Origin: Gammaproteobacteria bacterium
GTDB taxonomy: Bacteria; Pseudomonadota; Gammaproteobacteria; Pseudomonadales; Cellvibrionaceae
DNA: 39,578 nucleotides
NCBI GenBank assembly: GCA_025362015.1
Contig: JANYIO010000289.1
Location: 1-39,578 of the forward strand
Direction of reading: 5' to 3'
Of this stretch, positions 5,407-38,197 are shown one piece after another; the stretch's first letter is position 1, and every line of letters starts with the position of its first letter. A program made the position numbers and the translations under genes. The notes under the pieces are model-generated. The model had not been told where the DNA came from. It saw only the letters and a program-made list of their open reading frames with translations, and made no database searches.

Positions 5407-8028
5407 TTACCAACCGCTGTTTCCCGAACCGCGCACAATGGTGTAAGTGCTATTGCTTAAGCCACCAGATGCCGCTCCAGTTACAGTGACATTGCTAAAA
5501 TTACCAGTGCCGGTAACGCCATCAAAGAGTAAACCGTAAGTACCTGCGCCGTTAACCTGAACATTGTTCATGGTAAATGGTGAGATATTTTGGTTGTAAC
5601 TGAATTTGATGCCCTCATAGGTGCTGCTATTAATAACTAATGTGTCTACGATAACTTGTGAATTGATGCCACTATTTTCTGCATAAATCCATAAGCCGCC
5701 GAAGCTGGTGTTCCAGTTTGGTTCCCAGCCACCAGTGCGATTTAAGGTATTGCGTCTTACTTCCGTAGTGCCAGCGAAAGCAGTGCCGCCGAAGCGATTG
5801 CTGATGTTAATGCCGGCAGATGCGGTTACGGTATCTGAGCCAATACAATCAAAGATTTTATTGTCTTGTCCGCCATAAATTGCAAAGGTATTCGCGAGTG
5901 CAGGAAATTGCGCCGTATCAAATCTAAAACTGTTATTAACATTTGCGGAGCCGTTAGACCACATGGCCATTGCGTCATCGCCGGTGTTGCGAATAATCAT
6001 ATTGCTTACTTGAGAATTTTTCACGCCACCAGAAAGATTTACACCATCCGCCCAGGTGTCGCGAATACGGCTGTTCACAATAAATAAACCATCTGTTCCT
6101 GATGATAACCAGAAGCCCACTTTCATGTGTTCAACCCATACGTTTTGAACCAGTGAACCTGTGCCGAAGTTACCTTCAAATGCAGCAGCGTCGCCACCAT
6201 CGTTACGTACAAATGAATCGCTCACGACAGACATGTCTGCAATTGTAGTATTGCCGCCAGTAACAAAGAATCCACCTTGGCCATTTGAACCTTGCAAGGT
6301 GGTATACCACATACCCGCACCGCGAATTTGCATGCTGCTGATATTATTTAATTTGCTGTTCAAATTAAATGTGCCTGCAGGAATCCATACACCCACACCC
6401 ATTGTTTTTGCATAATTAATGGTGTTGTTGATTGCTACAGTATCGTCAACACCATCATTTGCTACTGCACCGCCGTAAGTGACAACAGAAACAAAATTCG
6501 CAGGCATTGTGTAAGCGCTTTCAATTTGTTCTAAATTAATAAAATCGATTTTGTAATAGGCTGCCGTATCGCCAGAATCTTTTTGTAATTTAACGGTGGC
6601 GCCAGCTGGAATATTCAAACCGGCGAAATGGCTTTCATCATAAAAATGGTGGCCATTGCCATTGCCTGGGTTGTCGTTAAACGGATAACCGCCATACACC
6701 CACTCGAAATGCGAAGTTAAATTTAATGTTTGCACTTTGCTTCCATTCACATACAAACTTAAGGTGCCGCTTGCGCCACCGCCTGAGCCTGAATCGGGCA
6801 TGTTGTAGCGCACGACTAAGGTGTTGGCTGCTTTTGCTGTTGTCCATTGTACGTATTGACCAGTCGCACTCAAGTTAACAAATTTTCTACCAGAAGATTC
6901 TGATTCAACCGTTAAATAAGTTGTGCTTGGGCCTGAAACTTGACCATTGGTTGAACCAACTTCTGCTTCGTATTCTTGGTAAGCCAAAGTTGCGCCACGT
7001 GTAGCGAGTGGTGATGCATTTGCAACAGAAATTAGATCAACCGTTACACCGCCAGTATTGCCAGAATCATATTGATAGCTAATGGTGTTGAAGCCTGCGC
7101 GCAATGCCAGTTGTTCGGATTGATTTGCCCAGGTTGTATTACTGCCGGTTGGTTGCAATGTCGTGGTTTTTGCAAGCAAACCATTTACATAAATATTTAA
7201 TGTTTTTGCAGAACCTGAACCATTGCCGTAACTTAAATTCACCGCGAAAGTTCCCGCAGAATTTACGTTGGTGGAGAAAATAACGCGTGCACCTACGCTG
7301 TTAAAATTTTCTAACCAGAGGCTGGCTTTAGTAACGCCACCAGAGTAGAAATTATCTTCAGCTTGATAGGTTGCTGCTGCGCCAGTTGATGAGCTGCTTG
7401 AACTTGCGGCAATAGAGCTTGTAGGAGTCGAGCTCGCAGGCTTTGAACTTGCGGCTACAGAGCTAGCCGGGGTTGAGCTTGCGGCAATGGAGCTCGCAGG
7501 CTTCGAACTAGCAGCAATAGAGCTAGCTGGTGTAGATGAGGCTCCGCCACTAACCACAGCTTCCAAATGCCATTGCGTACTCCACCAGTTTTTATCAATG
7601 GTGCCTGATTGTGCAAAACCCGTTTGATTTTCAACATGAATATATTGCGCTGATTGCCAGCGATTTCTAATCCACACGTAATTAGCATCGATGGTTTCGA
7701 GTGTCCAATCTGCGCTCCACCAGCTGGCATCACCACCAGCGGCTTGCACTGTGCCTGTTAAATTTTCAATGTGCATGAAATCGTTGGTGGCAAGATTTTT
7801 AAAACTTTTAAATCCGCCCGCTACATCAACCATCAACCATTGGCAATTAGTGCCAGTAGCAGCTGCCTGGTAAGCAACGTTTGCGCCTGTATCGCACAAA
7901 TAATTATTTTTCCAGCGATCTATAATGCGATAACTTGTGGTTTGTGCGAATGCACTGCTTGCTAGTAGTTGCAGCGCAATTAGGCTTGCACCTAAACATA
8001 CGCTTTGCTTTTTGGATAGGATTTTCAT
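5407..8028 (-). CDS. Secreted GH87 mycodextranase / alpha-1,3-glucanase, multimodular
   Basis: 873 residues from the ATG at 8028, which has GAGAGAG about 6 bases upstream; a TTG five codons earlier overlaps that site and is less likely. The signal peptide is 1-28 (ASSAFA). Residues 30-160 hold a trefoil/fascin-like repeat (MHIENLTG, YIHVENQTG, each followed by WWSxxWxLE). A Ser/Ala/Pro linker spans about 162-220. Two carbohydrate-binding beta-sandwiches follow (YQAEDNFYSGG at about 223-340; YQEYEAE at about 350-500). A C-terminal parallel beta-helix begins near 510. Three aspartates, D661 (DTWADG) and D684/D685 (NTGDDA), match the spacing of the catalytic Asp triad reported for the GH87 enzyme Agl-FH1 (1045, 1068, 1069, from memory). 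The product likely cuts alpha-1,3 bonds in alpha-1,3-glucan or nigeran outside the cell. It is a paralogue of the next gene upstream. Confidence 0.85.
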   Translation of the reverse strand: MKILSKKQSVCLGASLIALQLLASSAFAQTTSYRIIDRWKNNYLCDTGANVAYQAAATGTNCQWLMVDVAGGFKSFKNLATNDFMHIENLTGTVQAAGGDASWWSADWTLETIDANYVWIRNRWQSAQYIHVENQTGFAQSGTIDKNWWSTQWHLEAVVSGGASSTPASSIAASSKPASSIAASSTPASSVAASSKPASSTPTSSIAASSSSSSTGAAATYQAEDNFYSGGVTKASLWLENFNSVGARVIFSTNVNSAGTFAVNLSYGNGSGSAKTLNIYVNGLLAKTTTLQPTGSNTTWANQSEQLALRAGFNTISYQYDSGNTGGVTVDLISVANASPLATRGATLAYQEYEAEVGSTNGQVSGPSTTYLTVESESSGRKFVNLSATGQYVQWTTAKAANTLVVRYNMPDSGSGGGASGTLSLYVNGSKVQTLNLTSHFEWVYGGYPFNDNPGNGNGHHFYDESHFAGLNIPAGATVKLQKDSGDTAAYYKIDFINLEQIESAYTMPANFVSVVTYGGAVANDGVDDTVAINNTINYAKTMGVGVWIPAGTFNLNSKLNNISSMQIRGAGMWYTTLQGSNGQGGFFVTGGNTTIADMSVVSDSFVRNDGGDAAAFEGNFGTGSLVQNVWVEHMKVGFWLSSGTDGLFIVNSRIRDTWADGVNLSGGVKNSQVSNMIIRNTGDDAMAMWSNGSANVNNSFRFDTAQFPALANTFAIYGGQDNKIFDCIGSDTVTASAGINISNRFGGTAFAGTTEVRRNTLNRTGGWEPNWNTSFGGLWIYAENSGINSQVIVDTLVINSSTYEGIKFSYNQNISPFTMNNVQVNGAGTYGLLFDGVTGTGNFSNVTVTGAASGGLSNSTYTIVRGSGNSGW

Positions 8029-10526: not shown

Positions 10527-10540
10527 TGAATTCGTATTCA
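10527..10540. promoter_or_regulatory. Operator-like palindrome A
   Basis: TGAATTCGTATTCA. First of three sites with a TTCGTA centre, start-to-start spacing 20 and 19 bp, upstream of the lipoprotein GH87 gene. The form with central CG and flanking inverted arms is typical of LacI-family operators; the binding protein is inferred. Confidence 0.6.
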
Positions 10541-10546
10541 ATGGTT

Positions 10547-10560
10547 TGCATTCGTATGCA
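10547..10560. promoter_or_regulatory. Operator-like palindrome B
   Basis: TGCATTCGTATGCA, 20 bp from site A and 19 bp from site C, so all three would lie on roughly the same face of the helix. Confidence 0.65.
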
Positions 10561-10565
10561 TTGAA

Positions 10566-10579
10566 TGAATTCGTATGCA
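10566..10579. promoter_or_regulatory. Operator-like palindrome C
   Basis: TGAATTCGTATGCA. Third member of the GH87-proximal cluster, with the same TTCGTA centre as A and B. Confidence 0.6.
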
Positions 10580-10784: not shown

Positions 10785-10798
10785 TGCATACGTATGCG
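10785..10798. promoter_or_regulatory. Operator-like palindrome D
   Basis: TGCATACGTATGCG, near-perfect palindrome with the common TACGTA centre, 19 bp upstream of site E. Confidence 0.7.
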
Positions 10799-10877: not shown

Positions 10878-10962
10878 TCAACGAGCTGCAAACAATGCGA
10901 TGTAGATAGTTGCATAGAATTTGTAGCTAACAATAAAAGCAAATCTCCACCAGAGAGTAATC

Positions 10963-13686
10963 ATGAAAAAACATAAATTTAATCACATGCTAGCTGTAGT
11001 TTCGACAATGGCGTTGGTTGCAGGCTCACAGACAGTGTATGCCCAGCAAGCGACTGACAAAGCTGTTACTTCAGATAAAGTAGAAGAAATTATCATTACT
11101 GGTTTTAAAGCAAGTTTGCAAAAAGCCGCAGAGATGAAGAAAGAGTCCACCTCAATTGTTGAAGTGGTAACTTCAGAAGATATTGGCAAGTTGCCAGATA
11201 AAAGTATTGCCGAAGCATTAATGCGTTTACCTGGTTTGGCAACACAACGAATTAATGGTCGCCCACAAGTAATCAGTATTCGTGGTATGGATCCAGATTA
11301 CTCCAACACTTTAATGAATGGCCGTCAACAAGCGTCAACTGGTGTTAATCGCGCAGTACAATATGATCAATATCCAGCAGAATTTACCAACGCAGCAGTA
11401 GTTTACAAAACACCTGACGCAACCGTGCTGGGTCAAGGTGTTGCAGGTACTATTGATATGCGTACCGTGCGCCCTTTAGCTTTTGGCAAACAAGCCATAG
11501 TAGCTAACGTACGTTATGAACAAAACTCGGAAGCGGCATTAAATTCAGCAGCGACAAATAAGGGTACTAAAGATACCCTGAGTTATATCGATCAATTTAA
11601 TGATAATACTATCGGTGTAGCAATTGGTCTTTCACATACTGATAGCCCAACTCAAACTAAAAAATTCGAAGCATGGGGTTTTGCCTCAGTTGATGGCAAT
11701 GCTGTTATTGGCGGTGTTAAGCCTTTTGTGCAAAGCGATCTGGTCAAGCGTGACTCAGTTATTGGTACGCTTGAATATGCACCAAGCGAAACTTTTTCTA
11801 CTTCGCTCGATGTGTTTTATTCAAAATTTAAAGAAGATAATTTGTTTAATGGTGTAGAAATTCCGTTGCAATGGAACGGTGGTACACAGTTACAGCAGGG
11901 CTACAAAGTAACCGATGGCGTGGTAACGGAAGGTACTTATACTGGAACTGCGGGCATTGTTCGTAACGATGCTACCTATACCAAATCTGATCTTTATGCT
12001 GTTGCGTGGAATACCAAATTTGCAATAGGCGACGCATGGTCTGGCGATGTGGATATCAGCACGTCAAGCGCAGAGAGCAAGGCGTTAGGTTTAGAAAACT
12101 ATTCGGGTTATATGAATACGCCAGACACCTTGTCGTTCGTTACAGATTCTCACGGCACTCGCTTCACAGCCCATCAACTTGATTACAGCGATGCCTCAAA
12201 AATCACCATTACCAATCCACAAGGTTGGGGCAATGCTGGTCTTGACCCAAATGAAGGTGGTCAAAAATCTTTTGCTTCTCATCCGCATATTACGGATGAT
12301 TTAACGCAAATTCGCCTCAGTGCAAGCCATGAGCTGGATTGGGGTTTTATCAGCAAAGTTCAGCTGGGTATTAACCACGACGAGAGAAGCAAGTTTTCAA
12401 CCGTTGCGCCAGAGGTTTTATATGCATTCGCTGACCACAGTGTGTCGGGTGCTTTGCCGGCTAAGACCTACACCACAGACTTCAGTTATATGGGTTTGGG
12501 CAACGTATTGAGCTATAGCCCATTAGCCATTATTAATGACTCAAGAATGCGTTCTGTTGAAGATGTAAAACCTAGTGTTGCGTCTAGAACATGGACGGTA
12601 GATGAAAGTGTAAACACTGCTTTTATTAAATTTGATATAAAAAGCGAAGTGGGTTCTATACCGCTGACGGGAAATATCGGTTTGCAGTTAGTGAGTTCTG
12701 ACCAAAGTTCAGATGGCACCTCATCAACCGGTAACTATGGTACCTTTCAAGCAGTAGCTCAGCACGGCGAAGCGAGTTTCAACAACGTTTTACCGAGCCT
12801 TAACTTGAGTTTCGCTGTAACAGAAAAAGATTTCCTAAAAGTAGGAATGGCAAGAACATTAACTCGCCCACGTATGGACCAAATGCAAGCAAGCTCATCC
12901 TACGAATTAAAAGTAACGTCACTTCATGCAAATGAGTCTGCGACTTTGGAAAATTCACCGTGGAAGGCAAGTGGCGGCAATACCCAGCTAAAACCTTGGG
13001 TTGCCGACAGCATCGATTTGTCAGTTGAACATTATCTGGACGATAACATTGGCTATTTCTCTATTGCGACTTTTTACAAATACTTAAATTCTTATGTATT
13101 CAATAACAAAACTGTTATGGATTTTAGTGATTTTCCGGCAGATCCTAGTCAACCTACACCTACCTTCTATCAAGGTTGGAATACGGTGCCGACTAACGGC
13201 ACTGGTGGTTACATCCGCGGTACTGAATTTAGTCTTTCTTTAACGGGTGAAGTTATTAGTGAATCCTTGCGCGATTTTGGTGTGGTATTCAATGCTAGTC
13301 GCACCACCAGTAACATCGAGCCACTCAATACCATACCACATACCCTGCCAGGGTTGTCTGATAAAGTTCAAGGTGTACAGTTTTATTATGAGGCGCACGG
13401 ATTCTCTGCGCGCATCAGTGAAAATTATCGAAGTAGTTTTAATGGTGAGACTCAGGGTAACCTCGGTGGCCGGAGCTTGCGTTATTTTGATGGTACGAGA
13501 TTGTTGGACGCGCAAATTGGTTACACCTTTGAATCTGGTGCGTTGGATGGCTTAGGTATTACGCTGCAGGGTTATAATTTGAATAGCGAACCTAGTGTAA
13601 CGCGAGTAGGCGGCAAAGCTTTGCAAGTTGTTGACTATCAAACTTACGGCAGAAGTTATGCACTTAACCTAAATTATAAGTTTTAA
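10963..13686 (+). CDS. TonB-dependent receptor, alpha-glucan oligosaccharide uptake (TBDR1)
   Basis: 907 residues; ATG with GAGAGTAA upstream. The signal peptide is 1-28 (SQTVYAQQ). A TonB-box-like stretch VEEIIITGF lies near 41-49, followed by the plug (SIAEALMRLPGLATQRINGRPQVISIRGMD split across two conserved blocks) and an outer-membrane beta-barrel ending in an aromatic residue (NYKF). The style matches the large Caulobacter/Xanthomonas-type TBDR family that imports oligosaccharides. The signal peptide is almost identical to that of TBDR2, while the rest has diverged. Co-location with GH97, GH87 and GH13 genes and shared operators suggest malto- or nigero-oligosaccharides as ligand; this is inference. 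It is the first gene of the halogenase-cupin-GH97 series. Confidence 0.92.
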   Translation: MKKHKFNHMLAVVSTMALVAGSQTVYAQQATDKAVTSDKVEEIIITGFKASLQKAAEMKKESTSIVEVVTSEDIGKLPDKSIAEALMRLPGLATQRINGRPQVISIRGMDPDYSNTLMNGRQQASTGVNRAVQYDQYPAEFTNAAVVYKTPDATVLGQGVAGTIDMRTVRPLAFGKQAIVANVRYEQNSEAALNSAATNKGTKDTLSYIDQFNDNTIGVAIGLSHTDSPTQTKKFEAWGFASVDGNAVIGGVKPFVQSDLVKRDSVIGTLEYAPSETFSTSLDVFYSKFKEDNLFNGVEIPLQWNGGTQLQQGYKVTDGVVTEGTYTGTAGIVRNDATYTKSDLYAVAWNTKFAIGDAWSGDVDISTSSAESKALGLENYSGYMNTPDTLSFVTDSHGTRFTAHQLDYSDASKITITNPQGWGNAGLDPNEGGQKSFASHPHITDDLTQIRLSASHELDWGFISKVQLGINHDERSKFSTVAPEVLYAFADHSVSGALPAKTYTTDFSYMGLGNVLSYSPLAIINDSRMRSVEDVKPSVASRTWTVDESVNTAFIKFDIKSEVGSIPLTGNIGLQLVSSDQSSDGTSSTGNYGTFQAVAQHGEASFNNVLPSLNLSFAVTEKDFLKVGMARTLTRPRMDQMQASSSYELKVTSLHANESATLENSPWKASGGNTQLKPWVADSIDLSVEHYLDDNIGYFSIATFYKYLNSYVFNNKTVMDFSDFPADPSQPTPTFYQGWNTVPTNGTGGYIRGTEFSLSLTGEVISESLRDFGVVFNASRTTSNIEPLNTIPHTLPGLSDKVQGVQFYYEAHGFSARISENYRSSFNGETQGNLGGRSLRYFDGTRLLDAQIGYTFESGALDGLGITLQGYNLNSEPSVTRVGGKALQVVDYQTYGRSYALNLNYKF

Positions 13687-17910: not shown

Positions 17911-18003
17911 CAGATTTCCAGAAGTCCCCTAATGTTTTAAATAGCCGTATCCACTAGAGTGCGGCATACAATAAATTTCACATTAAAAAATAGAGAGTAA
18001 GTC

Positions 18004-20076
18004 ATGAAATTTTCAGTATTAAACGTCGTCGCAGAATTATTTTTATTTTTGCTTTTTTTTTCAAGTGTAAATGTTTTCGCAGAAACAAAATCAATAACGT
18101 CACCTGATGGTAATGTATTCGTTGATGTTAGCGATGAGGGCGGCGTGCCTGCTTACTCTGTGCAATATCGCGGTCAACCCATTATTAAAAAATCTAGCTT
18201 AGGCTTGGAATTTAAAGAGCTTGAAGGTTTTGTTCGCCATTTACACATTGTTAAGGCAGGCATTACTAGCAGCAATACCACTTGGGTGCAGCCTTGGGGT
18301 GAACGTAAAAATGTGCGCGATAACCATAAGGAATTAGTGGTTGAATTTTCACAAATGCAAAAACCTTTTCAATATTTTAATTTGCACGTTAAAGTATTTG
18401 ACGATGGTGTAGGGTTTCGTTATGAAGTGCCAAAGCAAGACGGTTTAGGCACTGTTGATATCGTCGATGAAAAAACTGAATTTGTGATTGCGAATAGTGA
18501 TACTACAACCGCTTATTGGATTCCTGGTCGCGCTCCTACAATTGACGAATATTTGTATAACACTACTCCTTTAGCAAGCATGCCGCGTGCGCAAACACCT
18601 ATGACAATGAAGTTGGCGTCTGGTGTGCATCTGTCTATTCATGAAGCGGCACTAGTGGATTACGCGGCCATGACTCTGGAGCAAAAACATCCCGGGCAAT
18701 TAAAAGCTGATTTAACTCCCTGGTACGACGGCATTCGTGTTAAAACTCAAACACCTTTTGTTACACCCTGGCGTTCAATTCAAATTGCACCCAACGCAGT
18801 CGGCTTATTAAATTCCAATTTAATTTTAAATTTAAATGAGCCGAATAAATTAGGTGATGTGAGTTGGGTAAAGCCGGGAAAATATATTGGTATTTGGTGG
18901 GCGATGCATTTGAATGCGTTAACCTGGCATTCCGGTGAGCAACATGGAGCCACAACCGAGCGCACCAAATCCTATATGGATTTTGCAGAAAAATATGGTT
19001 TTTCCGGTGTGCTGGTTGAAGGTTGGAATCAAGGGTGGGATGTGGATTGGGTAGCGGACGGTTCGTCTTTCAGTTTTACAAAATCTTACGTGGATTTTAA
19101 TTTGGCAGAAGTCACCGCTTATGGAAAAGCAAAAAAAGTAAAACTAATTGGTCATCATGAAACTGGTTGCTCGGTTACCAATTATAAAAACCAAATGGCA
19201 GATGCATTTGATTTGTACCAAAAAATGGGCGTCGAACAAGTTAAAACGGGTTACGTTACTGATCACGATAAATGTTCGCGCATTGATGATAATGGTGTTG
19301 TGCGTAATGAGTGGCATGACGGCCAATTTATGGTGAATGAATATCTTCGCTCGGTTACTGAAGCAGCCAAACGTCATATCAGCATTGACACCCATGAGCC
19401 AATTAAAGACACGGGTTTGCGTCGTACCTACCCTAATTGGATTTCTCGTGAAGGCGCACGCGGTCAAGAATACAACGCGCCCTGGTCGCCAGTTTCCAAT
19501 CCGCCTGAGCACACGGTGATGCTCGCCTTTACTCGCATGCTGAGCGGCCCTATGGATTACACCCCTGGGATTTTTAATATGGCGCCCTCAGGTTTGAATG
19601 CAGAACGCCGCGTTAAAAATACTCTCGCTAAAGAATTGGCTTTGTACGTTGTGCTTTATAGTCCAGTGCAAATGGCTGCAGATTTGCCGGAAAATTATTT
19701 GGCAAAAGATGGCAAAACAATTCGTCCTGGCTTCCAATTTATTATGGATATGACAACCGATTGGGAGGAAAGTAAAGCGCTTGCTGGTGAGGTGGGCGAT
19801 TACGTTGCCTACGCGCGAAAAAAACGCAATAGTAACGACTGGTTTCTGGGTGCGATTACCGACGAAAATGCACGAAAACTTTCCCTTAAGTTAGATTTCC
19901 TGGATGCTAACAAAAGCTATACCGCAGAAATTTACCGCGACGGTGCTCAAGTGGATTGGAAAACCCATCCCTATGACCTTATTGTTGAAAAGAAAACGGT
20001 GAAGCGTACCGATACGCTGGATGTATCGCTAGCGGCTAGTGGTGGGGTAGCTATTCGTTTTGCCGTGAAAAAATAA
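18004..20076 (+). CDS. GH97 alpha-glucosidase, SusB-like
   Basis: 690 residues; start preceded by AGAGAGTAAG. The signal peptide is about 1-27 (SVNVFAET), giving a periplasmic enzyme with no lipobox. The N-terminal beta-sandwich (residues 28-300) leads to a TIM barrel (GFSGVLVEGWNQGWD) and a C-terminal sandwich. E386 in GHHETG, E465 in THEPIKD and E489 in GQEYN correspond to the Glu set of inverting SusB (439, 508, 532); the 24-residue spacing of the last two is the same. The retaining GH97 subgroup has an Asp nucleophile and lacks these. It likely converts imported malto- or nigero-oligosaccharides to glucose. Ca2+ dependence is expected from the family. Confidence 0.9.
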   Translation: MKFSVLNVVAELFLFLLFFSSVNVFAETKSITSPDGNVFVDVSDEGGVPAYSVQYRGQPIIKKSSLGLEFKELEGFVRHLHIVKAGITSSNTTWVQPWGERKNVRDNHKELVVEFSQMQKPFQYFNLHVKVFDDGVGFRYEVPKQDGLGTVDIVDEKTEFVIANSDTTTAYWIPGRAPTIDEYLYNTTPLASMPRAQTPMTMKLASGVHLSIHEAALVDYAAMTLEQKHPGQLKADLTPWYDGIRVKTQTPFVTPWRSIQIAPNAVGLLNSNLILNLNEPNKLGDVSWVKPGKYIGIWWAMHLNALTWHSGEQHGATTERTKSYMDFAEKYGFSGVLVEGWNQGWDVDWVADGSSFSFTKSYVDFNLAEVTAYGKAKKVKLIGHHETGCSVTNYKNQMADAFDLYQKMGVEQVKTGYVTDHDKCSRIDDNGVVRNEWHDGQFMVNEYLRSVTEAAKRHISIDTHEPIKDTGLRRTYPNWISREGARGQEYNAPWSPVSNPPEHTVMLAFTRMLSGPMDYTPGIFNMAPSGLNAERRVKNTLAKELALYVVLYSPVQMAADLPENYLAKDGKTIRPGFQFIMDMTTDWEESKALAGEVGDYVAYARKKRNSNDWFLGAITDENARKLSLKLDFLDANKSYTAEIYRDGAQVDWKTHPYDLIVEKKTVKRTDTLDVSLAASGGVAIRFAVKK

Positions 20077-20210
20077 AACTACTATTAAGTCATTTGTACG
20101 ATACGGCAAGCGCAGTAATCAGGCAAAGGTTTCTTATTGGCACCTCCGAAAATTCAATTGCGTGTAATATCAAAGGATGCGTTGAGAAGCTTTGTCATGC
20201 GGTTGAAACA

Positions 20211-20224
20211 TACATACGTATTCA
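20211..20224. promoter_or_regulatory. Operator-like palindrome F
   Basis: TACATACGTATTCA, the inverse-oriented form of site G, 30 bp start to start from it, in the convergent gap. Confidence 0.65.
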
Positions 20225-20234
20225 GTTTTGTGCG

Positions 20235-20263
20235 TTGGCATGAATACGTATGTAGATGATTGT
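20235..20263 (+). promoter_or_regulatory. Orphan promoter overlapping operator G
   Basis: Operator G is TGAATACGTATGTA at 20241-20254. It is preceded by TTGGCA (20235-20240) and followed, with a 17-bp spacer, by GATTGT (20258-20263), forming a possible -35/-10 pair. Positions 20241-20263 are identical over 23 bp to the region upstream of the pullulanase gene (24706-24728, minus strand), which also sets its direction as plus. The -10 is weak. Confidence 0.55.
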
Positions 20264-20265
20264 GT

Positions 20266-20448
20266 GGTTTAGATGACGCGCTTAAAATCCTTACATCAAA
20301 GTTTTCGCCAGTTTTGAATGTTTTTAGGATGTTGAGAGTAGTTATTCTTAAAGGCTTTAAGGGTTTTGAAAGTTTTGATGTTATGCTTGAGTTTTTCCTC
20401 CTTGTATCCTTGTTATATTTTAAGCGCAGTTTTACTGCGCTTTTTTTT
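20266..20448 (+). ncRNA. Candidate regulated small RNA (or relic transcript)
   Basis: A transcript from promoter G would be about 175-185 nt and end at the perfect terminator at 20422-20448. It contains no credible ORF. CATCAAA (20294-20300) can pair with TTTGATG (20374-20380). A C/U-rich segment with TCCTCCTT (20396-20403) is complementary to a Shine-Dalgarno sequence. The exact 5' end is a guess. The alternative is the leftover 5' region of a gene that was deleted or inverted. Confidence 0.3.
20422..20448 (+). terminator. Perfect rho-independent terminator
   Basis: Stem AAGCGCAGT / ACTGCGCTT (20422-20430, 20434-20442) with a TTT loop and T8 tail. It is 346 nt beyond the GH97 stop, so it may serve that operon, the candidate small RNA, or both. 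Confidence 0.85.
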
Positions 20449-20627
20449 GTGTAAATTTCCGCTTTCTATTTTCCGTGCGCACTGGTTGTATTTTTTAATC
20501 GGCTTTATTCTGCCGGGTACACTACAGTGGGTAGAGGCGACAGCCAGCTTGCGAAAAGGGTGTAGACGACGGTGCAGAAGAGGTGCGAGTTTTTTTGGAG
20601 TAGCCAGGTTGAATCGTAAACGTAAAC

Positions 20628-20659
20628 AATAAAAAAGGCGCAGAGGCACCTTTTTTATT
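20628..20659 (-). terminator. Terminator of the pullulanase gene
   Basis: AATAAAAAAGGCGC / GCACCTTTTTTATT inverted repeat with one C-A mismatch, 22 bp after the minus-strand stop. It can act in both directions. Confidence 0.65.
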
Positions 20660-20680
20660 GTGGATAACATTTTAATAGAG

Positions 20681-23600
20681 TTAAATTGTTCGTGCCCGCA
20701 CTCTACATAAACCCACAATACCTAAACCTATGAGCAGGTCAAACAAACTATTCAATGCGCCACCACTTTTTTTATGTTTTGCCGGTGGAGTGCTGCCTGC
20801 TGATAATGATGGTTGTTTAGTGGCAACAAAAACTGCTGTAGTGCGTGCAGGTACAGTGAATATACCGGTAGCATTATCGACAGTAGATTGTTTAATAATT
20901 GAATCTGTTGAAGTTGCCTGGGTCGTGTGAAGTGCAAAATCAGTACCTTTTAATTCTGTTAATTTAATCGCTTTAGTACTGGTATTGGCGTTGAAAATGA
21001 CGACTATATCTTCTGCGTTGGGGTCAATGTTTGCTGCAGTATCTTTTAAATTCATGACTACAATGCCTGGCATTTGGCTTACGCCCGTGTTGTAAAATTT
21101 CACTACACTGTTAATTTGCTCGGCGGTTTCCAAGCGAAATAATTTTGAACTTTTGCGAATTTTTAACAGCTCAATGGTAGCTTCGCGAGTGCGTGTAATA
21201 TCTCCGGGTGTGGGCATTAATGCTGCATTCGCTAGTCTTGGTTTCATGATGCTCCAAGTGGTTTGATTTTTATCTGCTAATGGCACACCTCTGCCCCAAC
21301 CATTTTGTTGATAGGTAAAATCAAGGATGTTAAACCAATCGCCAGAATCGTAGCTATCACGATCAAACGATTTGGAGCGCAACATATCTTGGCCAGCATG
21401 GAGAAATGGTATGCCTTGCGCTAAGAGCACCAAAGAGTTACCTAGGTTTTGCATGCGAACGCGATCTGCCATGCTCGTATTTATTGGTGCTTTGTATTGG
21501 ATCATGTCAAAAAAAGTTTCACTATCGTGCGCTTCAATATAGTTAATTGTTTCTGACGGGTCTTGCGTGTATCCGGTGCCTTCCACTTCAGAGCCTTTTA
21601 CTATTGCACCTGTGCGGTCGGTAAAACTGAAGTTGGCGAGGGAGCCTGCCAGAACAATTTTTAATTTATCTTCTGCTTTTAGCAAAGCAACTTTGGCGGT
21701 ATCGCCCGCGGTATTTTCAGCGTTAGGTGCGGTATATAAACCCGATACGAAGCTTTGGCTTTTCGATAATTGGCTGCCAGTATCGCAACAACCACCGCCA
21801 CGCACCAAGTCACGAATCCGATCATTAAATGTGCCCACGCCAGTACCGCTCATGTTGCCAATAGACGCTTGCGTGAATCGAGAATCATCAGCCGTTTCAC
21901 CAAAATTCCAACCTTCACCGTAAAAATAAATTTTGCTGCCATCAACACCATTATCGGCAAGGGTGAGGTTTTGTAATTCGGTTTTGATTTTTACAATATT
22001 GTCTTTGGTGTGGTGACCCATAATGTCGTAACGAAATCCATCGACTTTATATTGCGTTGCCCATATTTTCATTGAATCTAACATGAGTTTTTCCATCATG
22101 GTATTTTCACTGGCGGTGTTTGAACAGCATGTGCTGGTTTCAATATCGCCTACTGCATTTAAACGGTGGTAATAAGTGGGCACCACTTTATCTAACACTG
22201 ATGTATCGTTTTGGAAGGCTGCACTGGTGTGGTTGTAAACAACATCCATTACTACACGCAAGCCGGATTTATTTAAACTTGCCACCATCGCACGAAATTC
22301 TTTAATGCGTTTTACGCCTTCTGGATCTGTGGCATAACTACCCTCTGGCACCGTGTAATGAAATGGGTCGTAACACCAGTTAAAGCCATCTTCACGGCGA
22401 ATAGCTTCAACGGCGGCTTGTTGTGATTCGCTGTCGGGTGCATAGAGTGACAAGTTATCAGTTATGGTTTTTTGTTTTGCTTTTACTTCATTGACCGTCG
22501 CACAATCATATGCGGGCAATAAATGTATATGCGTTAAACCAGCAGCAGCCAAGCTTTTTAAATGCTTCATGCCGTTTGAATTGTTTTCGTTAAATGCCAT
22601 AAAAGTACCGCGCTCATTTTCTGGCACAGTGCTATCGGTAATACTAAAATCACGAATATGCAATTCATAAATGACGATATCTTCCGGTGCATTTAATTCA
22701 GGCTTTGTCAGCGTACTCCAGCCATCGGGTTGTAAGTCTGCATCGTTTAAATTAACCAACATGCTGCGTTTGCCGTTGGTTGATAGGCCAATACTGTAAG
22801 GATCTGTCACCCAGTTATGTTCGATGTGACCAGTGTTGCGCGCGAAAACTTCTACTTCGTATAAATAATATTTCCGATTCCAGCTCGCATCACCAACAGC
22901 AGACCATACTCCGGTTGCAGCATCTGCAGCCATATCAACTACTGCGGCTTCGGTCGTGGTGGTTGCATCATTATAAATATGAACTTTTACAGATTTTGCA
23001 GTGGGCGCCCACAGCTTCAGCGTAGGAGCATCACCAGCATAAATAACACCAAGCTCTCCTGAGTACGCAAATAAATCATCGAGCGCGCCCGCAAATTGTA
23101 ATGCAGTGGCCTCCAATAAATTGCCCTTAGGCCCCGTTGCAGATACGGCAATTTGTTGCTTTAAAATAGTTGGTAATTTTGTTGCATCAGCCGGAGAAAC
23201 TTTATACACGGCAAGATTTTTTAAATGACGGTATTTTATTTTTAATGCCTCACTTAAACCATTTGGGTCATAGGTGAGCGAAATAGAATCACCACCTTCA
23301 ATGCCGTCCGGGCTGGAAGTTAAACTCCCGTCCGCTGAGAAATATAATTTTACCGCCGCAGTTGCGGCAAGCGCGCTTGGCAGCACCATTGCAATAGTGT
23401 CGCGGCTTAACCAATAAGCTTTTGCGGTTTTTACATTGCCCGCAATCACTTCATCACCGATATACACTTTGTGGCGAGCGGCGTCGTAAGTAAAAAATAC
23501 TTTTTGATTTTCGGTGGTTACGCTGAATGCAATATTGTTGCCGTTATCGCCATAACTTTCATCCCAGGTTTCATTGAGAGCAACTTTTGCTTCGTAACTG

Positions 23601-24541
23601 CCAACTGGTAAAGCGGTTGTAGAAAATGTGTAAAGGCCGCTGCCATCTATATCTTGTAACCAGGTTTTCATACAATCTGGTTGCCAATCACCTGGGCAGC
23701 CCAGTGCTGCTTGAAAATTACCAACCGCTGTTGCTATAACAGAATTGACATTATCGGCAACCCAATGCGTTTTATGACTGTAATAAAATTTTACATTGCG
23801 TGGGCTGGCTAGGATGAGAGGAATATTAGCGCCGCCAGATTTTGCATTAGCGCCGTAATTTTCTGCCCAGGACGCATTCAATGCTGCTTTGTATTGCCAA
23901 TTTCCAGCGGGTACCATAAAAGTTTGTTGCCAAATTTTGTCGCCATCTTCCAGCGATAATTGCGTTTGAGTACAGGCTATATCCCAATTGTTGCCGCAGC
24001 CTAATATTGTTTGTAAATCGCCAACAATAGTTACTGATGCAGGTTGTGGAATCTCTGGCACTACTACTGGGCCACCTCCGCCCCCACCATCACCTTGTGA
24101 ATTATCGGTCACTAGGTGCGTAACTTCATCGTATTTAAATGTTACGGTTTTATCGGCGGTAAGTGTGAAGCTAGCGTTACTTAAGCTTAATGCGTAGCCA
24201 TAACTTTCAGCCCAGGAATCGTCTAACGCAATTTTATATTCGTATGTTCCTGCAGGAATCAAAAAAGAACCAGACCACTCAGTGCCATTTTTAGTGAGGT
24301 GTGTTATGTCACATGTTGGCTGCCAATTGCCGGAGCACCCTAATATAGATTGCATCGTCCCCGCCGCAGTCACGGACGATGGCGATGCAGTTACATAGGT
24401 GGCCCAGCAGCTCGAAAGTAGCAGCGCACATTGGGCTATTGTTATTTTTATTGTTGAGATTTTTATTGCTGGCCTTTTCATTGCTGGCCTTTTCATTGCC
24501 GAGCTTTTCATTACCGGGCTTTTCATTATCGAGCTTTCCAT
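20681..24541 (-). CDS. Large pullulanase (GH13) with X25-like modules and GlyGly-CTERM tail
   Basis: 1,286 residues from the ATG at 24541; GAGGTG lies 8 bases upstream, so the GTG within it is not the start. The N-terminus is an unusual five-residue Met-Lys repeat before a hydrophobic stretch ending LLLSSC, a possible lipobox. Three X25-like modules follow (LGCSGNW, LGCGNNW, LGCPGDW). Next come a pullulanase N2-like domain, a CBM48 (LKLWAPTAKSVKVHIYN) and a GH13 barrel: DVVYNHT, nucleophile D839 (GFRYDIM), acid/base E876 (YGEGW), D1006 (EAHDSE). The C-terminus is Ser-Gly-Gly, a hydrophobic helix and basic residues (GLCRVRART), as in GlyGly-CTERM/rhombosortase substrates. It cuts alpha-1,6 bonds, probably at the surface after type II secretion. 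Operator H lies upstream. Confidence 0.9.
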   Translation of the reverse strand: MESSIMKSPVMKSSAMKRPAMKRPAIKISTIKITIAQCALLLSSCWATYVTASPSSVTAAGTMQSILGCSGNWQPTCDITHLTKNGTEWSGSFLIPAGTYEYKIALDDSWAESYGYALSLSNASFTLTADKTVTFKYDEVTHLVTDNSQGDGGGGGGPVVVPEIPQPASVTIVGDLQTILGCGNNWDIACTQTQLSLEDGDKIWQQTFMVPAGNWQYKAALNASWAENYGANAKSGGANIPLILASPRNVKFYYSHKTHWVADNVNSVIATAVGNFQAALGCPGDWQPDCMKTWLQDIDGSGLYTFSTTALPVGSYEAKVALNETWDESYGDNGNNIAFSVTTENQKVFFTYDAARHKVYIGDEVIAGNVKTAKAYWLSRDTIAMVLPSALAATAAVKLYFSADGSLTSSPDGIEGGDSISLTYDPNGLSEALKIKYRHLKNLAVYKVSPADATKLPTILKQQIAVSATGPKGNLLEATALQFAGALDDLFAYSGELGVIYAGDAPTLKLWAPTAKSVKVHIYNDATTTTEAAVVDMAADAATGVWSAVGDASWNRKYYLYEVEVFARNTGHIEHNWVTDPYSIGLSTNGKRSMLVNLNDADLQPDGWSTLTKPELNAPEDIVIYELHIRDFSITDSTVPENERGTFMAFNENNSNGMKHLKSLAAAGLTHIHLLPAYDCATVNEVKAKQKTITDNLSLYAPDSESQQAAVEAIRREDGFNWCYDPFHYTVPEGSYATDPEGVKRIKEFRAMVASLNKSGLRVVMDVVYNHTSAAFQNDTSVLDKVVPTYYHRLNAVGDIETSTCCSNTASENTMMEKLMLDSMKIWATQYKVDGFRYDIMGHHTKDNIVKIKTELQNLTLADNGVDGSKIYFYGEGWNFGETADDSRFTQASIGNMSGTGVGTFNDRIRDLVRGGGCCDTGSQLSKSQSFVSGLYTAPNAENTAGDTAKVALLKAEDKLKIVLAGSLANFSFTDRTGAIVKGSEVEGTGYTQDPSETINYIEAHDSETFFDMIQYKAPINTSMADRVRMQNLGNSLVLLAQGIPFLHAGQDMLRSKSFDRDSYDSGDWFNILDFTYQQNGWGRGVPLADKNQTTWSIMKPRLANAALMPTPGDITRTREATIELLKIRKSSKLFRLETAEQINSVVKFYNTGVSQMPGIVVMNLKDTAANIDPNAEDIVVIFNANTSTKAIKLTELKGTDFALHTTQATSTDSIIKQSTVDNATGIFTVPARTTAVFVATKQPSLSAGSTPPAKHKKSGGALNSLFDLLIGLGIVGLCRVRARTI
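24451..24540. repeat. 15-bp tandem repeats in the start region of the pullulanase gene
   Basis: Six 15-bp units from TTGTTGAGATTTTTA through two identical TTGCTGGCCTTTTCA copies to degenerate ones. On the coding strand most units supply an ATG and encode MKRPA/MKSSA-type peptides. The same unit family occurs upstream of the amylase gene at 26828-26917. Confidence 0.8.
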
Positions 24542-24714
24542 TATTGTCACCTCAGGATTTTTTATAAGAAATGTAAAAATAGCGATGCCACTAAAGTGGT
24601 AATCGTAAATAAATAACGAGCATTAAATTTTTTATAAAAAACATTGCGGCAGTGCGCGCCGCATGGTCTTTTGTGGATTGATAATATGCCTGCTTATGTG
24701 TTAGAACAATCATC

Positions 24715-24728
24715 TACATACGTATTCA
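24715..24728. promoter_or_regulatory. Operator-like palindrome H (pullulanase)
   Basis: TACATACGTATTCA, 174 bp upstream of the pullulanase start, with GATTGT three bases downstream on the minus strand. An extremely AT-rich stretch (about 24729-24815) adjoins it, between the amylase stop and this site. Confidence 0.7.
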
Positions 24729-24819
24729 TTTTTCTATTTATTTTTATAAAATAAAAAAAATACATAGAAATACAAATATAAAAATATTTATATTTGCTAT
24801 TAAATTATTATTTATTTAT

Positions 24820-26757
24820 CTAGTTAGTGCTGCGTGGAAGCTCCAAAATAACTGATTGCAGTGGCTTTAATGTCAACGGTACTAAGCCAATGCCATTTGT
24901 AATGCGTAATATATAATGCGATGTTTTATTGTGTGATGTTAGTACGCTGTTGAGTTTATGGTTTCCGTCATTTAGCGCCCAGCGAGTTAATAAATCTGTC
25001 GGCACCTGCAGCGATAGGGAATAGCTGTGCGTTGCAGAAAAATTACTTATCACCAATAGTTTTTGTGCTGTGTGGATATCGTTGGTTGTTTGCCAGCGGG
25101 CAAATGCAAATAGCTTTTCATCGTAACCTTTTGTGTTCGGGCGATTTGCATAATGAATGTCTTGATACGCACCTTGTAGAGCAGGGGCGGTTGCAGAAAA
25201 ATTAAGTAAAGTGCTATAAAAATCGCGTAAGGATTTTTCTTTACGCGTAAGTTTACCACCGTCAAATTTTCCGTTGTTCATCCAGCGCTGGTGATTGGGT
25301 ACGCCCCAGTAATCAAAAATAGTCGTTCGACTGGCCTGTCCGAAACCGGTATCTTCTGAGCCGGGCTCGCCAACTTCCTGCCCAAAATAAATCATTGTAG
25401 GTGAACGGCTTATGGTGGCGGACACTACCATCGCCGGTTTTGCACTTAAGGCGTTGCCGGCAAATGCCGGGCTAGCAATGCGCTGTTCATCATGGTTCTC
25501 TAAAAAATGTAGCATATGCTCTTCAATATCGAGCAACTCTTTTTGGCTGTTAGCGATGGAATCTGTCGAGCCTTTATGCTGAATAATTGCTTTCAGGTTG
25601 TCGTACATGCCTACTTTGTCGTAGAGATAATCCATTTTCCCCAAGTGAATATAATTACGATATTCCGATGGCGTATAAACTTCAGCCATTAAAAATGCAT
25701 CAGGATTTTTAATTTTGATGGAGGAGTTCAGGTAGCTCCAAAATTCTACCGGCACCATTTCCGCCATATCATAACGAAAGCCATCTACACCCATTGTTAG
25801 CCAATATTCGGCAATGGCGCGAAATTTTTTCCAGGTGTCTGGTACATTTTTATCTTGCCAAAACGCGGCATGTTGTTGAAATTCTTTCTCTGCATAATTG
25901 TCGGGCAAGCGCGGAAAATCCAGATTACCATTAGGCTTTACGCCATAATTAATTTTTACTGTTTCGTACCAGTCGTCGGCATTAGGTTGTGATTTTCGTG
26001 AACCATTGCCGGTCCATTTCGCAGGTGTTTCTGCAAATGCGCCATCGCTTAATGGATATTTTTCGCCACCCAAGGGTTTATAACTTTCTGTAGTGCCGAG
26101 CGCTGTAAAATTTGGCACTTTAAAACTTTCACCGACAATGTAATAAAAATTATTGTCACGTTTATATTCTATGGTCGCATCATCGCTCGCACCAAAATCT
26201 TCTTGCCCGGTTGGATTGTTTAGCGAGTGATATTGGCGTGCGACATGGTTAGGTATTATGTCGATAATAACTTTCAGCCCATGTTTGTGCGTGCGTGCGA
26301 TGAGCGCTTTAAATTCTTGTAGGCGTTGCGTTGGATCTATAGCCAAATCTGGATCAACATTATAATAATCCTTTACTGCGTAAGGTGAACCCGCGCGACC
26401 TTTGACGACATCTGGATCATCATTGCTTATGCCATAGTTTGTGTAGTCGCGAATAACGGCGTGATGCAAAACGCCGGTATACCACACATGAGTTGCACCT
26501 AATTGTTTAATGCTCTCTAACGCCTGGTCATTAATGTCATTAAATTTCCCTACGCCATTTTCTTCGAGAGTTCCCCATAAAGTATGAGTGGTTTTCTTGT
26601 TGCCAAAAAGGCGAGTAAATATTTGGTAAATAACCGGCTTACCCACAGTTGTTGATGGGGGGATATTTTTTTGTTCGTCTGCGTAAAGCAATGGGCTAAC
26701 AAACATCAGCAAGGCAATGTAAACCGGGCGAAGGTTACAAAAGTTTACAACATGCAT
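24820..26757 (-). CDS. GH13 alpha-amylase, periplasmic or secreted
   Basis: 645 residues; ATG at 26757 with AAGAGG nine bases upstream. Signal peptide to about residue 26 (SPLLYADE). The catalytic barrel begins near 42 (VIYQIFTRLFG). GH13 motifs: IIDIIPNH, nucleophile D330 in GFRYDMAEM, acid/base E359 in LMAEVYTP, and D423 in ENHDEQR. A C-terminal beta-sandwich follows. No carbohydrate-binding module or lipobox is seen, so it probably works on maltodextrins in the periplasm. The gene precedes the pullulanase on the same strand with a 278-bp gap that contains operator H. No strong operator of its own was found; a degenerate match 146 bp upstream is part of a repeat array. The neighbouring halogenase pseudogene ends 167 bp upstream. 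Confidence 0.9.
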   Translation of the reverse strand: MHVVNFCNLRPVYIALLMFVSPLLYADEQKNIPPSTTVGKPVIYQIFTRLFGNKKTTHTLWGTLEENGVGKFNDINDQALESIKQLGATHVWYTGVLHHAVIRDYTNYGISNDDPDVVKGRAGSPYAVKDYYNVDPDLAIDPTQRLQEFKALIARTHKHGLKVIIDIIPNHVARQYHSLNNPTGQEDFGASDDATIEYKRDNNFYYIVGESFKVPNFTALGTTESYKPLGGEKYPLSDGAFAETPAKWTGNGSRKSQPNADDWYETVKINYGVKPNGNLDFPRLPDNYAEKEFQQHAAFWQDKNVPDTWKKFRAIAEYWLTMGVDGFRYDMAEMVPVEFWSYLNSSIKIKNPDAFLMAEVYTPSEYRNYIHLGKMDYLYDKVGMYDNLKAIIQHKGSTDSIANSQKELLDIEEHMLHFLENHDEQRIASPAFAGNALSAKPAMVVSATISRSPTMIYFGQEVGEPGSEDTGFGQASRTTIFDYWGVPNHQRWMNNGKFDGGKLTRKEKSLRDFYSTLLNFSATAPALQGAYQDIHYANRPNTKGYDEKLFAFARWQTTNDIHTAQKLLVISNFSATHSYSLSLQVPTDLLTRWALNDGNHKLNSVLTSHNKTSHYILRITNGIGLVPLTLKPLQSVILELPRSTN

Positions 26758-26827
26758 ATTGCCGGCCTCTTGGTTTTACTGCATAAATGATTGAGTGCAA
26801 AATAAGTTTATTCATTAAGCTGTTATT

Positions 26828-26924: not shown

Positions 26925-28415
26925 CTATGCCCCACAGATCCGCATCAGGTATTCGTCGTGGCTTGGTATTTTTTCAAGTGGGTTTTGTTTAATTTTTTTC
27001 ATGCTATCGAGCATTTCTTTGAGTTGTATTTCTGAGATTGTATTGGCGAGAGGGTGATAATCTTGTGGAACTATGCCTTGACCGATCATCACTTGTAACC
27101 AGGAGGATTCGAGAAATAAATCCTCTTGCTCACGAAATATGTTTCCTGTTTGGCTAAATAAATTAATTTTTTTTGCCAGGCTTTCAGGGATTTTCATGCT
27201 GCGTAAATCTTGCCAAAATGCACTGTCATTACGTTCGTTCACATGATAGTGAAGAATGAGGAAATCGCGGATTTGTTCTATCTCAAGATTGGCTTGCTGG
27301 TTGTATTCCGTAGCATTTGCAGCATTTATTCCTACGTGTGGAAATAGCTTAATGAGCCGCACAATGGCAGATTGAATTAAATGAATGCTGGTCGATTCTA
27401 ATGGCTCAAGAAACCCGCTTGAAAGGCCTATAGCAACAACATTTTTATCCCATTGTTTGTGTCGCCTGCCTGTTTGAAATCGAATAAGATTAGGTTCACC
27501 TATTATTTTGCTTTCCACATTGGCAAGCAACATGGCGGTGGCCTCGTCATCAGAATAATAATTACTGTTGTAAACGAACCCATTGCCATTTCGGTGTTGT
27601 CATGGGATGCGCCACTGCCAACCGGCACTGTGTGCAATGCTGCGAGTATAAGGTAGCGTATTGGTTAAGCGTTCAGAGGGCGCGGCGATGGCGCGATCGC
27701 AGGGCAGCCAATGGCTCCAGTCTTCATAACCTACGCCTAATGCCTTGTGAATTAACAGGCTGCGCTGACCCGAGCAATCTATAAAAAAATCGCCTTCAAT
27801 TATCGCATCATTTTTTAAGTGAAGTTTTTCTACAAAACCAGTTTCAGCATTTAAGCTAACGTGATTAATAAAGCCCTCGGTGCGTTTTACGCCACGTTTT
27901 TCACTGTACTTACGCAAAAAATTTGCATATAGAGACGCATCAAAATGATATGCGTGGGGTATGGCTAACAGAGGGTTTTGTGTTTGTAGTGGCGAATATT
28001 TATTGGCAATAGCACAAAGATAGTTGAGATCGTAATCCCATAAATTGGTTTGATATCCGCTCTGATTAGCTCTGAGCCAAAAATGATGGAACGGACAAAA
28101 TGCAATTGTTTTTCCGGCGGCACCAAACGTATGAAAATATTCGCTGCCAATTTTCTGCCAGTTTTCAAATTTAATAGCCAGCTTTATAGTGGCTTTGGTT
28201 TCGCGTAAAAATTCTGCGTTGTTAACGCCGAGTACATCATTAAAATCGCGAATGGGTGGAATGGTTGCTTCACCAACACCGATCCTGCCAACGTCTTCAG
28301 ATTCTACCAATTCAATTTCAATGACGGATGACAATACTTTTTTTAACAATGCTGCTGTCATCCAGCCTGCCGTTCCACCACCGACAATAACAACTTTTTT
28401 TATTGGCTTATGCAT
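26925..28415 (-). pseudogene. Flavin-dependent halogenase family gene 3, interrupted by in-frame TGA
   Basis: The reading frame has 496 codons before its final TAG. A TGA at 27602-27600 splits it into residues 1-271 and a downstream part; both halves are in the same frame. Residues straight after the stop (QHRNGNGFVYNS) align with QHRTGNGHVYCN of halogenase 2, so the TGA replaces the Leu of the WQWRIPLQ motif. The upstream half has VVIVGGGTAGWM, GVGEATIP and the equivalent of PrnA Lys79 (TIKLAIKF); the downstream half has LEPLESTS. Apart from the stop nothing looks decayed, so this is a recent nonsense mutation, a sequencing error, or a gene read through at low level. It follows TBDR2 as halogenase 1 follows TBDR1. 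Confidence 0.85.
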
Positions 28416-38091: not shown

Positions 38092-38173
38092 TGATTATTG
38101 CGCCGGCAAGCTCATCGACAAATGGTGAGTTTGCTTAAGCGTGTTAAGTGGTTTTATTGTTCGAACTCTCTTT

Positions 38174-38197
38174 GCGCAGCTTGCTGCGCTTTTTTTT
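38174..38197 (+). terminator. Terminator of the second pullulanase gene
   Basis: Stem GCGCAGC / GCTGCGC (38174-38180, 38183-38189), then T8. Confidence 0.85.

Follow-up and report, generated by a model that had tools for sequence, protein, structure and literature searches.

A Candidate Small RNA Gene in the Alpha-Glucan Regulon of Cellvibrio

Introduction

Two palindromic operators of an alpha-glucan regulon lie in a gap in which both flanking genes end, and the question raised by this locus is what they control there. The gap is part of the window (the whole stretch of DNA analysed, 39,578 nt of contig JANYIO010000289.1). Its upstream neighbour is a GH97 alpha-glucosidase gene (nt 18004–20076, plus strand) with its stop at 20076, and it is closed by a convergent pullulanase gene (nt 20681–24550, minus strand) whose ORF ends at 20681; this arrangement had been correctly noted in a preliminary description of the DNA. 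As judged from comparison of sequences, the unit in the gap is probably a small RNA gene that has a promoter of its own and belongs to the alpha-glucan (starch/maltodextrin) regulon.

Vibrio (Vsr217) and Escherichia coli (MalH) provide, for maltose, known examples of small RNAs through which sugar use is coupled to the rest of the cell, as described in the accessible parts of the respective papers (PMC8265627, PMC8081044). The Cellvibrionaceae are a group noted for their large sets of carbohydrate enzymes, and a search of the open-licence literature returned no paper describing such an RNA in Cellvibrio or Cellvibrionaceae. Cellvibrio japonicus carries a related unit at about nt 871,463–871,580 of CP000934 (plus strand), and as RNA-seq data on starch (GSE206866) and glucose (GSE90955) are public for this species, existing data suffice to test for its regulated transcription. 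The starch RNA-seq is reported in PMC10714805, in the main text of which the terms 'small RNA' and 'noncoding' are absent.

Operators and Their Regulator

Both palindromes of the preliminary description are present, one as TACATACGTATTCA (nt 20211–20224), an auxiliary operator centred at about −77 from the predicted RNA start, and the other as TGAATACGTATGTA (nt 20241–20254), the promoter-proximal operator, centred at about −47. The operator core RNATACGTATNY has six matches in the window compared with 0.28 expected, and none of 100 shuffles reached six. Operator pairs, with variable spacing, occur in 18 of the 21 genomes of the genus. Over the entire genome (4.5 Mb in 328 contigs), only three contigs carry perfect TGNATACGTATNYA sites. 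These are the window itself, C281 (at its end) and C126, on which the sites separate a GH13-like gene from a transporter gene. The transporter gene is adjoined by a gene for a LacI-family regulator (Pfam PF00356, 55.2 bits, cut-off 27), and from this gene position we infer that the LacI-family protein is the regulator of these operators.

The window operators in the gap are 30 bp apart, and further operators occur at 10.8, 24.7 and 31.4 kb, a distribution that would suit extra operators acting on the neighbouring genes via looping or titration, any RNA being incidental. This would leave the conserved −35 and −10 elements, the terminator and the C-rich motif (all described below) unexplained, and we consider it very unlikely.

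Three tandem near-operators, in which ATTCGTAT replaces ATACGTAT, are found at nt 10527, 10547 and 10566 (within 10527–10579, 19–20 bp apart). They lie upstream of a TonB-dependent receptor gene, in addition to its operators at 10785 and 10804, and are perhaps sites of a paralogous regulator.

Promoter

A set of 94 operator sites with a TTG 4–6 bp downstream was assembled from loci fetched across the genus. The layout operator-N5-TTGnnn-N17/18-TAnnnT fits 73 of them, including all 11 Cellvibrio units of the kind described here (that of the window and ten in congeners), and the 21 sites that do not fit include several upstream members of operator pairs. Within the window the same layout is found at the two TonB-dependent receptor genes, the pullulanase gene and the orphan unit (TTGTGT-17-TAAAAT). 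In the unit, the −35 element TTGTGT (nt 20260–20265, plus strand) begins 5 bp past the operator and is separated by a 17-bp spacer from the −10 element TAAAAT (nt 20283–20288, plus strand). As the TTG follows the operator by 5 bp in this layout, the operators are located upstream of the −35 element. The promoter had previously been given as TTGGCA-17-GATTGT; these hexamers are indeed present, but their assignment as a sigma-70 promoter is ruled out by the regulon-wide layout, in which the −35 element comes after the operator and which gives TTGTGT/TAAAAT instead. The predicted RNA start is about 25 nt later than TTGGCA/GATTGT would imply. When the upstream operator (nt 20211–20224) was read on the minus strand, no TTG was found at the proper distance. 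Across the family, the pattern GAATACGTATGTA-N5-TTG matches in 38 of 144 genomes, and a reversed control in none.

The pullulanase promoter (nt 24681–24729, minus strand) carries an identical operator. The identity to the unit is one base pair longer than the 23 bp (nt 24706–24728) counted before, as nt 20240–20263 and nt 24706–24729 (minus strand) agree at 24 of 24 bp. Because it spans the 5-bp spacer, which differs in most other units, this identity points to a duplication or inversion in this lineage.

In another genome of the genus (G004, locus L013, about nt 1502–2250), a regulon promoter precedes an amylase gene that, by eye, is apparently broken.

Predicted RNA and Terminator

The predicted small RNA extends from the promoter to a T-run and is about 154 nt long (nt 20295–20448, plus strand). 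Its intrinsic terminator (nt 20422–20448, plus strand) was recognised in the preliminary description and consists of the stem AAGCGCAGTTTTACTGCGCTT at nt 20422–20442 followed by the T-run, which ends at 20448. In nt 18000–26800, neither terminator-like hairpins as a class (10 found, 10.3 expected) nor sigma-70-like pairs (17 found, 21.5 expected) exceed chance, and the case is therefore carried by comparative evidence.

No plausible ORF accompanies the unit, in agreement with the earlier reading: an 88-aa frame with a TTG start (nt 20366–20632) runs through the terminator. A comparison of small frames across the units revealed no common start, length or sequence, with a frequent Arg-Cys-stop end alone recurring, and on these differences we rejected a leader peptide ending in RC-stop.

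The fold of the window RNA (−35.4 kcal/mol, z-score −3.0, equalled by 3 of 200 shuffles) comprises a long hairpin at the 5′ end, the terminator and, between them, a C/U-rich stretch with weak structure. The 5′ hairpin domain (nt 20293–20381, plus strand; outer arms 20293–20306 and 20368–20381) is a fold specific to the window. The C/U-rich segment, previously noted at nt 20396–20403, contains CCTCCTT (nt 20397–20403, plus strand), which in the RNA is the anti-Shine-Dalgarno motif CCUCCUU; its CUCC is conserved in 13 of the 17 units now known, 11 in Cellvibrio and six in a second genus (g13, see below). The motif CCUCCUU is also present in 77 of 5000 shuffles of the window RNA, and in the minimum free energy fold its CUC is weakly paired with a nearby GAG. 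Further along is CCUUGUUAU (nt 20408–20416, plus strand), common to the units of G046 and G048, both from the second genus. Fold z-scores ranged from +0.6 to −3.0 for the congener RNAs (that of G016 folded without its full terminator) and from −0.9 to −2.7 for the g13 RNAs, the layout of which is broadly alike and the sequence different. A covariation search, as suggested in the preliminary description, gave a minimal result, two small alignments each showing a single compensated pair, located in the terminator in either case. A search of Rfam 15 at the gathering score returned no matches, either for the window or for six loci of relatives.

A long outer stem (nt 20255–20450) that appeared in the first fold was ruled out, as its 5′ arm (nt 20278–20288) overlaps the −10 element; this arm precedes the predicted start, so the stem is absent from the RNA. 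At the DNA level, nt 20278–20288 in the −10 region and nt 20417–20427 at the left arm of the terminator form a perfect 11-bp inverted repeat.

Related Units in Cellvibrio

Units of the same plan are found in 10 of the 20 other genomes of the genus, one of them that of C. japonicus Ueda107 (G002), and stand beside alpha-glucan genes. Past their promoter, at 84–170 nt from the operator, is a GCGCAG-type terminator, and the interval holds no credible gene; in G005 the unit is overlapped by an unrelated frame of 218 codons. The window unit has both the operator-N5-TTG-N17/18-TAnnnT promoter and the GCGCAG-type terminator of this Cellvibrio family (R1). Among the 94 operator sites, 13 have a terminator match within 260 nt, of which 12 belong to the 11 units and the other (G018) is inside an ORF. 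A pattern search of the genome contigs gave ten matches; three are known units and seven look like coding coincidences. Conservation within the ten congeners is uneven along the unit, with a mean pairwise identity of 0.86 from the operator to the TTG, 0.25 in the middle, 0.70 in the 3′ block and 0.73 in the terminator. The sequence TCGCTGTT is invariant in all ten, and the bases ahead of the terminator read TCGTCGCTGTTGATRA in seven and TCGCTGTTAGTTRTTT in the other three (G012, G016 and G020).

The gene order in G007 raises the question of whether the unit is a leader. There it stands directly ahead of the pullulanase ATG and in the same direction, the operator lying about 200 nt from the start codon, and no second operator pair is present. 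The unit could then have been, ancestrally, the 5′ leader (attenuator) of an alpha-glucan gene, with a terminator that is conditionally read through, the gene having been inverted away in the window; the 24-bp identical copy at the window's pullulanase promoter, the hairpin in the leader of that gene, and the short frame ending in Arg-Cys-stop in many units are in keeping with this. In G012, G016 and G020, however, the pullulanase gene lies past the unit's terminator and has a second operator pair of its own. Five g13 units are followed by a convergent gene, elsewhere the next gene is of other families, and neither a start codon nor a peptide is common to the units. A CYTH-domain gene is downstream of the unit in G003 and, by the start of the sequence, likewise in G002, G005 and G008, and a choice-of-anchor B gene occupies this position in G017, with an evident homologue in G010. 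Since the downstream genes vary by lineage, a leader function leaves their range unexplained, whereas a free RNA explains it, and we regard the leader as unlikely.

From the operator of the second pair to the predicted start of the pullulanase ORF, the distance is 252–445 nt (L086/G016, nt 7103–7534; L087/G020, nt 10897–11182; L088/G012, minus strand).

Upstream of the units, a terminator was sought within 200 nt before the operator and none was found in 13 of the 17, including the window and all six g13 units, so that in these units transcription of the upstream gene may read through and add a longer transcript. The lack of a terminator between the GH97 stop and the window operators, as in the other units of this group, would also suit an RNA derived from a 3′ UTR, in which the GH97 operon would end at the terminator and the functional species would be a fragment processed from its 3′ end, as for MalH. 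Against this, the unit has its own regulon promoter, and four units (G003, G005, G008 and G010) do have a terminator ahead of the operator. Such an origin is highly improbable as the explanation of the unit, but it is compatible with a small RNA gene that has its own promoter, and both could coexist.

The Window Copy Compared with Its Congeners

A covariance model (R1) was built from the ten Cellvibrio congener units, which it scores, by construction, at 60–72 bits; others reach at most 32.8 bits among the genus matches listed. In the window genome, R1 has its best match at the window unit (28.8 bits, E = 8.8e-5; the next, at nt 38171, has 25.0 bits), the match residing mainly in the terminator and U/C-rich sequence, with the TCGTCGCTG block missing. 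The UCGCUGUU block, invariant in the ten congeners, is absent from the window copy, which has UCCUUGUU. Searching the family with R1 at E 1e-5 gave matches in 12 of 144 genomes, these being the ten congeners, G011 and G130, and under the stricter filters and threshold of this search the window genome was without a match. The G011 match (32.8 bits) was rejected by eye, its locus being without ATACGTAT, and the G130 match (33.7 bits) likewise, as the stretch looks coding. When a 331-bp window query was compared (BLAST) with the 21 genomes, the unit of G016 gave the best non-self match, at its 3′ end (89% over 36 bp, E = 4.7e-6). The alignment of the window RNA with that unit is weak, being equalled by 12 of 500 shuffles, or by 103 of 2000 for the last 28 nt. 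The window copy is a member by architecture and position, and not by the block of its congeners.

Units in a Second Genus

The family pattern found 33 regulon-promoter sites outside Cellvibrio. All were inspected, and most precede a gene; only six lead to a terminator without a credible gene between, and all six are in g13, where units occur in six of eight genomes and the GC-rich terminator starts 152–155 nt past the operator start. The units of G042 and G048 are overlapped by unrelated frames (95 and 113 codons), of which the other g13 units are free. The upstream gene is a tryptophan-halogenase gene (by Pfam in G047, by eye in the remaining genomes). As in the window, a convergent ORF follows the unit in five of the six genomes, and in the sixth (G043) the next ORF is co-directional and about 480 nt further on. 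The g13 gap adjoins genes other than those of the window, the convergent gene being of the phage-integrase family (XerC-like) in G044 and G048.

The 3′ segment ahead of the terminator reads CATGACCTCCTTGTTATTTTATGTTTT in the clearest g13 cases and TTCCTCCTTGTATCCTTGTTATATTTTA in the window. A CUCCUU segment before the GC-rich terminator is found in five of the six g13 units and also in the window unit; CCTCCTT is common to the window, G043, G046 and G048, with CTCCTT additionally in G042 and G044, and CCTTGTTAT is common to the window, G046 and G048. Local alignment of the last 60 nt of the window RNA was best with G046 (equalled by 2 of 1000 shuffles) and then G043 (10 of 1000), and with congeners it was equalled by between 43 (G017) and 976 of 1000 shuffles. 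On these sequences, the window copy resembles the g13 form. Over all 17 units, CUCC occurs upstream of the terminator in 13 (the exceptions being G007, G012, G020 and G047) compared with a shuffle mean of 2.9, and none of 1000 shuffles reached 13, a statistic that is not a clean probability because the units are related by descent. The distance from CUCC to the terminator varies from 17 to 81 nt.

A second model (R2), made from the g13 units alone, was run over 316 kb comprising the window and the Cellvibrio loci. The window unit scored 30.0 bits (E = 7e-4) and seven further Cellvibrio units (L142, L141, L087, L140, L086, L082 and L088) 24.4–16.2 bits; no match was found to the units in L127, L132 and L138. 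The top R2 match, above the window unit, is at an ordinary terminator (nt 38130–38196), and six other places that are not units score 11.8–18.5 bits, among or below the weaker units.

The place with the top R2 score, a terminator region behind an amylase gene (nt 38130–38196), has 25.0 bits with R1 and 31.6 bits with R2, about level with the window unit, and is probably an ordinary GCGCAG terminator.

All six g13 RNAs (L366, L367, L359, L369, L370 and L371) carry the motif GGGCA (as UGGGCA or GGGGCA) in their 5′ domain, often in or close to a hairpin loop; it is absent from the window RNA.

These comparisons also bear on how the unit came to its present position. If the starting order was like that of G007, the convergent gap around the unit would result from an inversion that took along the pullulanase gene and its promoter. 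The unit might be a relic, a functionless promoter and terminator left by inversion or gene loss, as the 24-bp identity, including an otherwise variable 5-bp spacer, suggests a recent duplication and the window copy is without the block conserved in congeners. Yet both operators, the −35 and −10 elements and the terminator are intact, the anti-Shine-Dalgarno motif is found in another genus as well, and there are orphan units in 16 other genomes; a relic seems to us distinctly unlikely. An inverted gene, proposed early on as a rival account, may explain the place of the unit, in line with the 24-bp copy, but not its recurrence with a conserved terminator and motif.

Possible Function and Targets

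The preliminary description had proposed a regulated RNA that tunes other transcripts. The regulated RNA unit is well supported by its recurrence in ten congeners and six g13 genomes; the tuning of other transcripts would be its putative role. In the small RNA gene that we favour, a regulator, probably of the LacI family, would act at the two operators, and an RNA of about 154 nt would be made when the alpha-glucan genes are on. In this predicted RNA a 5′ hairpin domain would be followed by UUCCUCCUUGUAUCCUUGUUAUAUUUU, a C/U-rich segment with weak structure, and then by the terminator. Because CCUCCUU matches the 16S rRNA 3′ end, pairing with ribosome-binding sites is the simplest mechanism: the motif would pair with those of target mRNAs, most simply lowering translation, perhaps with Hfq, for which the U-rich terminator alone is suggestive. 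Anti-Shine-Dalgarno pairing is likewise used by RsaE and the C-rich small RNAs of rhizobia. AbcR1 binds ribosome-binding sites through such a segment, according to the accessible part of its description (PMC6234868). Small RNAs of this kind share with the unit a CCUCC-type segment ahead of a terminator, a likeness in working only.

Known systems offer partial parallels, drawn here from the accessible portions of the papers. Vsr217 of Vibrio is a maltose-induced small RNA that acts in trans on fbp and comes from the malK 5′ UTR under MalT, without a predicted terminator (PMC8265627). Compared by description, the unit is like Vsr217 in being a small RNA candidate expressed from a maltose/alpha-glucan regulon promoter and conserved within a genus, and through its RNA other transcripts would be tuned to the use of alpha-glucan, the part that Vsr217 plays for maltose. 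It differs in that it ends at an intrinsic terminator of its own, carries LacI-type palindromes and in most cases has no regulon gene downstream, and its context is GH97 and pullulanase genes with palindromic operators rather than a malK 5′ UTR. MalH of E. coli, a degradation intermediate from the malG 3′ end (PMC8081044), is tied to the maltose regulon; the unit differs from MalH by its own promoter. The MalR regulon of Shewanella places maltodextrin hydrolases (susA and susB in the locus) and TonB-dependent and sugar transporters under LacI-type control (PMC2996990); it is alike, by description, in this control, and the part of that paper available to us mentions no RNA gene.

The putative pairing segment differs by lineage, being UCGUCGCUGUUGAU in most Cellvibrio units, UCGCUGUUAGU in G012, G016 and G020, and CUCCUU/CCUCCUU in g13 and the window species. 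A tentative reading, which we think has perhaps a modest chance of being right, is that the operator-promoter and terminator form a fixed chassis in which the pairing segment is swapped between lineages. If so, the sugar signal would be fixed and the controlled mRNAs rewired, from specific targets to broad Shine-Dalgarno pairing.

Target prediction, also suggested in the preliminary description, did not single out a gene: in duplexes of the C-rich segment with 18 window gene starts, none stood out. The lowest energies were those of Thal2 (−23.3 kcal/mol, beyond the 1% background) and pullulanase (−20.1 kcal/mol, beyond 5%), which for 18 tests is little more than chance. For the congener form, CAACAGCGA, the complement of the UCGCUGUU block, was searched for 2–22 nt before ATG in the 21 genomes. 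In G002 and G003, 64 sites (60 loci) were read, a set that left out four matching G003 sites and the two units themselves; 13 were at plausible starts, with no orthologous pair evident by eye.

RnfB/RsxB and RnfC/RsxC are encoded by neighbouring genes of one operon in other bacteria. The sequence CAACAGCGA occurs just before two starts, one in L283 (G002), which by eye we take to be that of RnfB/RsxB, and one in L332 (G003), presumably that of RnfC/RsxC; Rnf/Rsx is a possible target operon, or this is a coincidence.

Elsewhere in the window, a tryptophan-halogenase-like gene (nt 26925–28415) is split into ORFs at nt 27600–28415 and 26925–27533. Its homologues in the window are 507–509 aa long, and the gene looks interrupted.
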